From Lysobacterales bacterium RIFOXYA1_FULL_69_10 (GTDB lineage Bacteria > Pseudomonadota > Gammaproteobacteria > Xanthomonadales > Xanthomonadaceae), in NCBI GenBank assembly GCA_001830245.1, contig MIDV01000028.1, positions 73,275 to 113,096 of the forward strand: a stretch of 39,822 bases of DNA. The letters run 5' to 3'. This document shows positions 16,378 through 38,765 of this stretch, one piece after another; the first letter of the stretch is position 1; every line of letters starts with the position of its first letter. A program made the translations under genes and the position numbers. The notes beneath the pieces were generated by a model, which searched no databases, was not told the DNA's origin, and worked only from the letters and a program-made list of their open reading frames with translations.

Positions 16378-16425
16378 TCGGGGTCGTCCCCGATGACGGG
16401 ATGGCCGCCGGGTCGTCCCGTCGGC
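16378..16425 (-). ncRNA. Candidate guanidine-II (mini-ykkC) riboswitch upstream of gdx
   Basis: Minus-strand RNA has two hairpins with ACGA loops: GCCG-A-CGGG-ACGA-CCCG-G-CGGC (16425-16404) and UCGGGG-ACGA-CCCCGA (16393-16378), 10-nt linker, 19 nt before the gdx ATG. Confidence 0.85.
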
Positions 16426-35514: not shown

Positions 35515-36435
35515 TCAATGCGGCGCTTCCACCTTGTCACCGCCACGCATCTTCTTGACGGCCGTGACCACGGCGACCACCAGTGCGCCCACGACGATTC
35601 CGACCACCGCGTTGGCCAGGGCAGCAAGCAACGTGCCGGCGATGCCCTGGGGCACGATGTCCTCCACCCAATGCGCCAGCGCGGGGATGGCATGCACGAG
35701 GATGCCGCCGCCCACCAGGAACATCGCCGCGGTGCCGGCGACCGACAGGAACTTCATCAACCACGGCGCCGTGTAGAGCATGCCGCGGCCGAGCGCCGCG
35801 GTCGCCCCGCCCTTCTCGGCCAGGTGCATGCCGGCGTCGTCGAGCTTCACGATGCCCGCCACCAGGCCGTACACGCCCACCGTCATGCCCAGCGCGATTA
35901 GCACCAGCACCAGCGCCTGCTGGGTGAACGGCTGCGCCTCCACCACGCCCAGCGACAGCACGATGATCTCCGCCGACAGGATGAAGTCGGTGCGGATGGC
36001 GCCCTTGATCTTGTCCTTCTCGAACGCGACCAGATCGACCTTCTCGTCGGCGACCGCCTTGACGAGATCGTCGTGGTGCCTGGCATCCTCCTCGCGCGAG
36101 TGCAGGAAGCGATGCACCAGCTTCTCCGCGCCCTCGTACACCAGGTACGTGCCGCCGATCATCATCAGCGGCGTGATGAGTACTGGGAGCCACGCACTGA
36201 TCGCCAACGCGGCGGGCACCAGGATCGCCTTGTTCTTGAACGAGCCCTTGGCGACCGCCCACACCACCGGCAGCTCCCGCGCCGCCTTGACCCCGGTGAC
36301 CTGCTGCGCGTTGAGCGCCAGGTCGTCGCCCAGCACGCCGGCGGTCTTCTTGGTGGCCAGCTTGGTCAGGATCGCGACGTCGTCCATCACGGTGGCGATG
36401 TCGTCGAGCAGGGTCAACAGGCTGGCACCGGCCAT
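35515..36435 (-). CDS. DUF808 (YedI-like) inner membrane protein
   Basis: [48 protein letters not shown]...[15 protein letters not shown]. Confidence 0.93.
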
Positions 36436-36526
36436 GGGCGTTCCGTCAGCAGAAGAAGGGGCGCGCATTGTCACCCAAGCGGTGTGCACGGGCGTAGACA
36501 GCGGGATCGCCGGCGGGTGGAGGCCT

Positions 36527-36596
36527 TGTAGGAGCGACGTGAGTCGCGACCGGATTGCCCGGTGCAGCGCGGGTCGCGACTCACGTCGCTCCTCCA
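36527..36596. repeat. REP hairpin (inner B-B' type only)
   Basis: TGTAGGAGCGACGTGAGTCGCGACC ... GGTCGCGACTCACGTCGCTCCTCCA. Confidence 0.88.
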
Positions 36597-36615
36597 GGGG
36601 GCTTCGTGGCCGAGG

Positions 36616-36708
36616 GTCGTAGCCCGGGTAAGGCCCAGGGCCGCACCCGGGGTGGCACATCCACCAAGGGACCCGGATGCGCTTCGCTTATCCGGGCTAC
36701 GGTTTAGG
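36616..36708. repeat. Second REP-like family, GTAGCCCGGGTAAGG / CCGGATGCGCTTCGCTTATCCGGGCTAC
   Basis: Inverted GTAGCCCGG arms with GCGCTTCGCTTATCC hairpin. Confidence 0.7.
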
Positions 36709-38404
36709 CCAACGCAGCCTGGTGGACACCTGCCACGGCGCGGCCCGAGGGATCGGCGGCGTTGGCGAACGCCGCGTCCCATGCGATCGCCGCCGGCGAC
36801 GAGCACGCGATCGACTTGCCGCCCGGCACCGTCTGCGCGCAGGCCTCGCCGGGGAAGCTGCGTTCGAAGATGCGACGGTAGAAGTACGCCTCCTTCGTCT
36901 GCGGCGTGTTGACCGGGAACCGGCTGGCCGCGGCGGCGAACTCGCGGTCGCTGACGTGTTCGGCCGCGTGCGCCTTCAGCCCGTCGATCCAGCCATAGCC
37001 GACGCCGTCGCTGAACTGCTCCTTCTGCCGCCAAAGGATCGAGTCGGGCAGGTAGCCTTCGAACGCCTCGCGCAACACCGCCTTCTCGATGCGCCGCCGG
37101 CCTGCCGCGTCCACGCCGGCCATCTTGGCCTGTGCGTCCATGCGCATCGCCACGTCCAGGAACTCCACGTCCAGGAACGGCACGCGCGGCTCCACCCCCC
37201 AGGCCATCATCGACTTGTTGGCGCGCAGGCAGTCGTAGAAGTGCAGCGCGTCGAGCTTGCGCACCAGCTCGTCATGGAACTCGCGGGCGTTGGGTGCCTT
37301 GTGGAAGTACAGGTAGCCGCCGAAGATCTCGTCGGAGCCCTCGCCCGACAGCACCATCTTCACGCCCATCGCCTTGATCCGCCGCGCCAGCAGGAACATC
37401 GGCGTGGACGCGCGGATAGTGGTCACGTCGTAGGTTTCGATGTGGCGGATGACGTCGGGCAGCGCGTCGACGCCCTCCTCGAAGGTGTAGGTGAAGCCGT
37501 GGTGCACCGTGCCCAGCGCCTCGGCGGCGACCTCGGCCGCGGCCAGGTCGGGCGAGCCCTCCAGCCCGATGGCGAAGGAGTGCAGCCGCGGCCACCACGC
37601 CTCGGAGTTGTCGTTGTCCTCGATGCGACGCCGGGCATAGCGCGCGGCCACGGCCGCCACCAGCGACGAGTCCAGACCGCCCGACAGCAGCACGCCGTAC
37701 GGCACGTCGCTCATCATCTGCCGGTGCACCGCGCGCTCGAAGGCCGCGCGCAGGTCGGCCGGCGTGACGGTCACGCCCTGCACCGCGTCGTACTCGCGCC
37801 AGTCGCGCGTGTACCAGCGCCGAAGTTCGCCCGTCGCGCTGTCGAACACGTGGCCGGGTGGGAACGGCGCGACGTCGCCGCAGGTGCCGACGAGCGCCTT
37901 CATCTCGGACGCCACCCACAGCCGCCCGCTGCCGTCGTGGCCCCAGTACAGCGGAACCACGCCCATGGGATCGCGCGCGATGAGGTAGCGGCCGCGGGCG
38001 CGATCCCACAACGCGAAGGCGAAGATGCCGTTGAGCCGGTCCAGCCACTCGGCCGGGTCGCCGTCGCGGTGCTGGGCGTAGAGCGCGTTGATCACCTCGC
38101 AGTCCGAGCCGGTCTGGAATTCGTACGGCGTCGAAAGGCCCTGCTCCAGCTCGCGGTGGTTGTAGATCTCGCCGTTGACCGCCAGCACCAGCGCGCCATC
38201 GCTGGAGCGCAGCGGCTGCGACCCGCCTGCCGGGTCGACGATCGCCAGGCGCTCGTGGACGAGGATCGCGCCGTCGTCGGCATGCACGCCGCTCCAGTCC
38301 GGGCCACGGTGGCGCTGGCGTTGCGAGAGTTCCAGCGCGTGCCGGCGCAGGCGTGGCAGGTCGTCGCCGGGTTGCAGGTCGAACAGGCCGAGGATCGAGC
38401 ACAT
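36704..38404 (-). CDS. asnB: Asparagine synthase B (glutamine-hydrolysing)
   Basis: MCSILGLFDL Cys2 nucleophile; RHRGPDWSG; VNGEIYNHREL; LLSGGLDSSLVAA; LSGEGSDEIFGGYLYFHKAPN. Confidence 0.97.
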   Translation of the reverse strand: MCSILGLFDLQPGDDLPRLRRHALELSQRQRHRGPDWSGVHADDGAILVHERLAIVDPAGGSQPLRSSDGALVLAVNGEIYNHRELEQGLSTPYEFQTGSDCEVINALYAQHRDGDPAEWLDRLNGIFAFALWDRARGRYLIARDPMGVVPLYWGHDGSGRLWVASEMKALVGTCGDVAPFPPGHVFDSATGELRRWYTRDWREYDAVQGVTVTPADLRAAFERAVHRQMMSDVPYGVLLSGGLDSSLVAAVAARYARRRIEDNDNSEAWWPRLHSFAIGLEGSPDLAAAEVAAEALGTVHHGFTYTFEEGVDALPDVIRHIETYDVTTIRASTPMFLLARRIKAMGVKMVLSGEGSDEIFGGYLYFHKAPNAREFHDELVRKLDALHFYDCLRANKSMMAWGVEPRVPFLDVEFLDVAMRMDAQAKMAGVDAAGRRRIEKAVLREAFEGYLPDSILWRQKEQFSDGVGYGWIDGLKAHAAEHVSDREFAAAASRFPVNTPQTKEAYFYRRIFERSFPGEACAQTVPGGKSIACSSPAAIAWDAAFANAADPSGRAVAGVHQAALA

Positions 38405-38460
38405 GGGACGGGTCCTTGAGTGGATGCGGAGATCGGATGGGAGGCGGGACGGTCGACCAA

Positions 38461-38491
38461 CAAAAAGGCCCGCACTTCGCAGTGCAGGCCT
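38461..38491 (-). terminator. Intrinsic terminator (candidate attenuator) in the asnB leader
   Basis: Minus strand AGGCCTGCACT-GCGA-AGTGCGGGCCT-TTTTGTTGG: 11-bp stem with one U-G wobble, GNRA loop and U-tract, minus-strand specific, 57 nt before the asnB ATG. Confidence 0.9.
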
Positions 38492-38518
38492 GGGAGAGCG
38501 ATGAGCGTGGAGCGTGTG

Positions 38519-38653
38519 CTAATCGCCGGCCTGCGGGAGGCGGGCGTTGTTATTGAGGTTGTTGTTGGACGCGGCCTGGCGCGAGCGGCCACGCGCGGCC
38601 ATCGCGCCGGGGGCGGCGGCGTGGCGTGTGCGGCGGGCGCGGGCTGCGGGCAT
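38519..38653 (-). CDS. Candidate asparagine-rich leader peptide upstream of asnB (44 aa; shorter start 38602 gives 27 aa)
   Basis: MPAARARRTRHAAAPGAMAARGRSRQAASNNNLNNNARLPQAGD*; AGGA Shine-Dalgarno-like sequence before ATG 38653; Asn codons at 38546-38554 and 38558-38566. Confidence 0.8.
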   Translation of the reverse strand: MPAARARRTRHAAAPGAMAARGRSRQAASNNNLNNNARLPQAGD

Positions 38654-38765
38654 GGCTGGATCCTGTGGCAACGGGGGCCGCGCTTGCAAGCGGGCGGTTG
38701 CATGGGTGAACGTGCCATGCGGCCGGCACCGGCCATGGCGCGGCATCACCAGGGGGAGCAGTCGG

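Follow-up and report, generated by a model that had tools for sequence, protein, structure and literature searches.

A candidate asparagine-responsive leader-peptide attenuator, probably leaderless, upstream of asnB in Lysobacterales

The proteobacterial attenuators of the trp, his, thr, leu, ilv and phe operons have in common a short open reading frame (ORF) enriched in codons for the end product, an antiterminator and a terminator that exclude each other, and a stop codon that lets a terminating ribosome block the antiterminator. A comparative survey of proteobacterial attenuators from 2004 reportedly covered branched-chain, His, Thr, Trp and Phe operons and no Asn operon. Asn-specific T-boxes of Firmicutes sense uncharged tRNA-Asn and attenuate transcription of asparagine genes, and in Escherichia coli asnA is regulated by AsnC, a DNA-binding protein. 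A leaderless precedent is known from Sinorhizobium meliloti, where the 5' end of the rnTrpL transcript is the ATG of trpL (PMC7298713).

The element described here lies upstream of asnB in the window (the whole stretch of 39,822 nucleotides that was analysed, from Lysobacterales bacterium RIFOXYA1_FULL_69_10). It is very probably a transcription attenuator of asnB that works through the ribosome and senses asparaginyl-tRNA, a reading that draws on the anatomy, conservation, covariation and promoter spacing of the locus. From the other proteobacterial amino-acid attenuators it differs in its Asn codons, its asnB target, a probably leaderless transcript and a stop codon inside the antiterminator stem. 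With the Firmicutes Asn T-box it would share tRNA-Asn sensing and transcription attenuation, but a T-box binds the tRNA directly and involves no translation. Asparagine-responsive control of synthesis is likewise the point of contact with E. coli AsnC/asnA, which differs in its protein regulator and in the enzyme controlled; asnA is absent here. As in the S. meliloti trpLE(G) attenuator (rnTrpL/peTrpL; PMC7298713), the transcript is predicted to start at the leader ATG; that system has Trp codons, trpE(G) and reported trans functions, whereas here the codons are for Asn and the gene is asnB.

Rfam 15 was searched with the window and 16 relatives, at a relaxed E-value as well, and held no Asn leader and no family matching the element. 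A T-box was rejected as a candidate, with no Rfam match at the gathering score in the window and 16 loci or at E <= 5 in 38300-38760. A literature search returned leader-peptide studies and no Asn leader or asnB attenuator; subscription journals were thinly covered, and a description there is possible. The earlier note on this DNA, made by a model from the sequence, named T-boxes and AsnC-type regulation as known examples, and no such attenuator for asnB in this group. The mechanism is a known one, and it is the predicted amino-acid specificity (Asn) that is new.

On the minus strand, a leader ORF with an Asn run comes first, overlapped by an antiterminator strand, and is followed by an intrinsic terminator of 11 bp and then by asnB (Table 1). 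The identity of asnB is unambiguous (NF006949, asparagine synthase B, 859 bits versus a cut-off of 499). A base-by-base check of the window bore out the earlier note, which had described a short minus-strand ORF before asnB ending with six Asn codons in seven, a GCGA-capped 11-bp terminator with a U-tract (38491-38461) and a GCAGGCC in the leader complementary to the terminator 5' arm; its coordinates and complementarities were all right. The terminator folds with -20.9 kcal/mol (z = -5.1; 0.0 terminators expected in shuffles), and GCAGGCC (38534-38528) is perfectly complementary to GGCCTGC (38490-38484). As an antiterminator this pairing is supported, but the note had drawn it too short. The predicted stem is longer: its distal half GGCGAUUAGC, which includes the leader stop codon, pairs with GCUCAUCGCU, and the duplex of the leader strand with 38506-38484 has -26.6 kcal/mol (z = -6.2, dinucleotide shuffles). 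The divergent gene opposite encodes a penicillin-amidase family protein. A DUF808 family gene (35515-36660, minus strand) starts about 44 nt downstream of asnB if an upstream ATG is used, and is possibly co-transcribed.

Table 1. Features of the asnB upstream region, in window coordinates.
Feature	Position	Strand	Remarks
-35 element TTGCAA (predicted)	38684..38689	minus	TTGC-type -35 recurrent in related leaders
-10 element CAGGAT (predicted)	38660..38665	minus	6 nt before leader ATG; spacing conserved across loci
Leader peptide ORF	38519..38653	minus	44 codons and TAG, MPAARARRTRHAAAPGAMAARGRSRQAASNNNLNNNARLPQAGD then stop; A of ATG is the predicted transcription start
Regulatory codons AAC AAC AAC CTC AAT AAC AAC (NNNLNNN)	38546..38566	minus	Asn codons at 38566-38558 (AAC AAC AAC) and 38554-38546 (AAT AAC AAC); base check, conservation, cluster scan
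1:2 hairpin that would sequester the antiterminator strand	38524..38546	minus	-11.8 kcal/mol, z = -2.0
Antiterminator strand 2 (GCAGGCC GGCGATTAG C)	38518..38534	minus	Overlaps leader stop codon
Spacer segment GCTCATCGCT	38497..38506	minus	Partner of antiterminator distal half
Intrinsic terminator stem-loop	38466..38491	minus	11 pairs, GCGA loop, AGGCCTGCACT-GCGA-AGTGCGGGCCT, then TTTTG; 5' arm 38490-38484 is antiterminator strand 3
U-tract TTTTG	38461..38465	minus	Base check
AAGGA ribosome site of asnB	38413..38417	minus	
asnB, glutamine-hydrolysing asparagine synthetase, 566 aa	36704..38404	minus	NF006949; Pfam Asn_synthase and GATase_7

The predicted promoter of the window reads TTGCAA-18 nt-CAGGAT-6 nt-ATG and was not called in a generic consensus promoter scan. 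For the related leaders, promoters were searched for 0-69 nt upstream of the in-frame ATG and the best one per locus was kept. Its -10 box lies 6 or 7 nt before an in-frame Asn-proximal ATG in 75 of 93 loci, and in most related leaders a TTGC-type -35 element is found 16-19 nt (mostly 17-18 nt) upstream of that box. With a conserved -10 box 6-7 nt ahead of this leader ATG, transcription probably starts on or next to the A of the codon, giving a leaderless mRNA. One locus of family f7 (L103) has an Asn leader and a terminator, but its promoter (TTGACA/GATAGT) lies about 25 nt ahead of the ATG, so that it is not leaderless.

Conservation in relatives, which had been proposed as a test in the earlier note, was found for the Asn-run leader, and compensatory changes for the terminator and the antiterminator pairing. 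A contig scan for AsnB gave 80 loci. An Asn-rich leader ORF with a terminator lies upstream of asnB in all 40 Lysobacterales loci from close relatives (39 of L001-L042, plus L051), with 78-280 nt between the ORF end and asnB and 19-36 nt between the stop codon and the terminator. Further asnB upstream regions were taken from two large families, one of them that of the window, and 57 of 59 carry the element (the exceptions are L151 and L164); this sample partly overlaps the 40 loci, some species being common to both. Outside the Asn run and the segment that overlaps the antiterminator, the leader peptide is unconserved in sequence and length (mostly 20-48 aa). Compensatory changes occur at four pairs of the terminator stem. 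Some terminators have weak U-tracts. The antiterminator duplex beats shuffles at p < 0.05 in 34 of 41 loci, the other seven being individually no better than shuffles, and the longest perfect antiterminator complement averages 7.6 nt versus 5.3 nt in shuffles. Among 25 aligned leaders of the Lysobacter type, columns 53 and 107, which pair in the antiterminator, are G-C in 17, A-U in eight (the window among them) and unpaired in none. In six of the eight A-U leaders this U also stays paired in the terminator, as U-G, and the change in the leader strand therefore compensates the antiterminator specifically; as few as one or two events in evolution may lie behind the switch from G-C to A-U.

The geometry of the leaders was analysed in a set of 95 distinct sequences. 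From the first Asn codon to the start of the core antiterminator the median distance is 37 nt, and from the end of the core to the stop codon it is 8 nt; the core is free with a ribosome at the first Asn codon in all 95 leaders, and in 75 it is no more than 14 nt away from the stop codon. Of the 553 Asn codons of these leaders 259 are AAT, versus 52 of 329 in the coding sequences of asnB in relatives (Fisher p = 7e-22), with one AAT among the six Asn codons of the window leader itself. Such an excess could reflect a stall site kept free of structure, or slower decoding.

One rival reading sees no regulation at all: an ordinary terminator, constitutive or processed, or else the place where some unrelated short transcript ends, would lie beside a frame that is Asn-rich by chance. 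Terminators before genes are common, and the weaker matches of our RNA model elsewhere are ordinary gene-end terminators. The Asn-rich frame is nevertheless hard to ascribe to chance, which was estimated from the window and 39 related loci. At least five Asn in eight codons occur at one place only in the six frames of the window, namely the leader; in the six frames of the 39 loci (250,761 bases), all 120 windows of this kind lie no more than 450 nt upstream of asnB and on its strand. Moreover, the promoter-linked ATG, picked regardless of frame, shares the reading frame of the Asn codons in 93 of 93 leaders. Together with the nearly constant distance from stop codon to antiterminator and the compensatory pairing, these observations make an unregulated terminator very improbable.

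For the attenuator itself we infer leader translation, stalling, readthrough and a leaderless start. A 70S ribosome would begin at the RNA 5' end, on the leader ATG, and trail RNA polymerase. When Asn-tRNA is plentiful, it would clear the Asn codons and arrive at the stop codon inside the antiterminator stem; by masking the antiterminator strand there, it would allow the terminator to fold and transcription to end before asnB. When Asn-tRNA is scarce, the ribosome would stall on the Asn run. The core antiterminator strand, 26-32 nt downstream of the first codons of this run, would then be left free to capture the nascent terminator 5' arm, and polymerase would read into asnB.

These states were modelled by folding the 95 leaders, with the ribosome represented by a mask over all RNA as far as 12 nt beyond the first base of the A-site codon. 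At the stage when transcription had reached no further than the terminator 5' arm, the antiterminator had a probability above 0.5 in 93 of 95 leaders for a stall at the first Asn codon and in 94 of 95 for a stall at the second. With the ribosome at the stop codon the count was 4 of 95, a drop that is partly built in since this state masks the upstream strand. Mean antitermination was 0.69 in real leaders versus 0.49 in shuffled ones, and the real leader exceeded the shuffled one in 87 of 95 cases. The stall/stop logic set out in the earlier note is reproduced in the model, in which the two ribosome positions give the predicted switch. Equilibrium folding of the full-length RNA was uninformative as a switch test, the terminator dominating most states and usually winning even when the ribosome was stalled (mean P 0.80). 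The switch must therefore be kinetic; known attenuators are likewise understood to be kinetic.

The earlier note had drawn a competing hairpin as the structure that sequesters the antiterminator strand. This 1:2 hairpin folds as drawn and is paired in 94% of cells in the Lysobacter group, but its covariation there is not above that of shuffles, and other clades have different hairpins at this place. It is possible as the main OFF structure, yet covariation gives it no support. For these reasons, masking of the antiterminator strand by a ribosome on the stop codon is the better-supported OFF step.

A fuller reading, in which an Asn-specific leaderless attenuator of single origin is the standard asnB control in Lysobacterales and its terminated 5'-AUG transcript may have a trans role too, as small RNA or micro-mRNA like rnTrpL, is considered unlikely in this complete form. 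A mainly trans-acting product, be it the leader peptide as a micro-protein or the terminated leader RNA as a small RNA (compare peTrpL and rnTrpL of Sinorhizobium), with attenuation secondary, is a good deal more doubtful still: a predicted leaderless transcript ending at the terminator does resemble rnTrpL, whose 5' end is the trpL ATG (PMC7298713), but the lack of peptide conservation outside the Asn run and the antiterminator overlap speaks against a peptide function, and the leader always precedes asnB. Translational control, with the ribosome position in the leader altering access to the asnB ribosome-binding site, would suit those leaders that stop only about 80-100 nt short of asnB, but is extremely improbable given distances to asnB of 78 to 341 nt, unrelated repeats in between in Rhodanobacter, a stop-to-terminator spacing held at 19-36 nt and a conserved alternative structure that ends at the terminator.

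An asnB-like match is present in 349 of 399 whole genomes of the order. Beyond the two large families, the element is found in a third family (L087-L089) and once in family f7 (L103, above). No element was seen before asnB in most sampled members of families f4, f5, f7, f9 and f10, before the more distant asnB copies L097, L098 and L101, or before asnB of Alteromonadales or Aeromonas. A covariance model of the element (R1) was searched over 369 genomes of the class; its strong matches lie only before asnB and only in the window's family. A wider regulon was rejected after inspection of ten of the next-best R1 matches and three weaker ones in the genome of the window, which with one exception were gene-end terminators without Asn runs. 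The exception, in a relative (L209; G023:C136:88454-88589, minus strand), is a branched-chain-type leader (SILVLVLITQPTGAGRASV then stop) with a terminator before an ilvC-like gene. In a Rubrivirga metagenome-assembled genome (L054, 65% AsnB identity), asnB is preceded by a frame with NLTNANRN and by a terminator, on a short contig that may be misbinned. Three records labelled Holophagales, Rhodococcus and Deltaproteobacteria (L008, L036 and L039) hold an asnB 74-84% identical to that of the window, with no Asn leader within 450 nt upstream.

In the genome of the window (assembly about 95% complete), asnS (636 bits) and a single asnB were found, and gatA and asnA were not. As far as this assembly shows, Asn-tRNA is sourced only from free asparagine, either made by AsnB or taken up. 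Since asnS is present without gatA or asnA, charging of tRNA-Asn should track the AsnB product, and the path from AsnB product to Asn-tRNA is, to the same extent, the closed loop that such an attenuator needs. GatCAB transamidation was rejected as a second route to Asn-tRNA, gatA being absent or below the cut-off in this and 24 related genomes, 22 of which have asnS. With gatA missing and asnS common among relatives, AsnS/GatCAB content fails to explain the families that lack the leader.

Asparagine appears to be missing among the amino acids with a described leader-peptide attenuator, and the Lysobacterales element would add it order-wide, in a group to which Xanthomonas, Stenotrophomonas, Lysobacter, Rhodanobacter and Dyella belong. 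The element would explain how asparagine synthesis is tied to Asn-tRNA charging where AsnB and AsnS form the only route. It is a candidate Rfam family, and over 90 natural versions of a single, probably leaderless attenuator offer material on ribosome position versus termination. In three Rhodanobacter loci (L014, L021 and L029), repeated GC-rich palindromes (GCGCGGTTCCATCCGCGC and CGGCCATCCATGGCCG) are inserted between the terminator and asnB. Elsewhere in the window, a Guanidine-II riboswitch (mini-ykkC) was found at 16380-16424 on the minus strand (40.6 bits).
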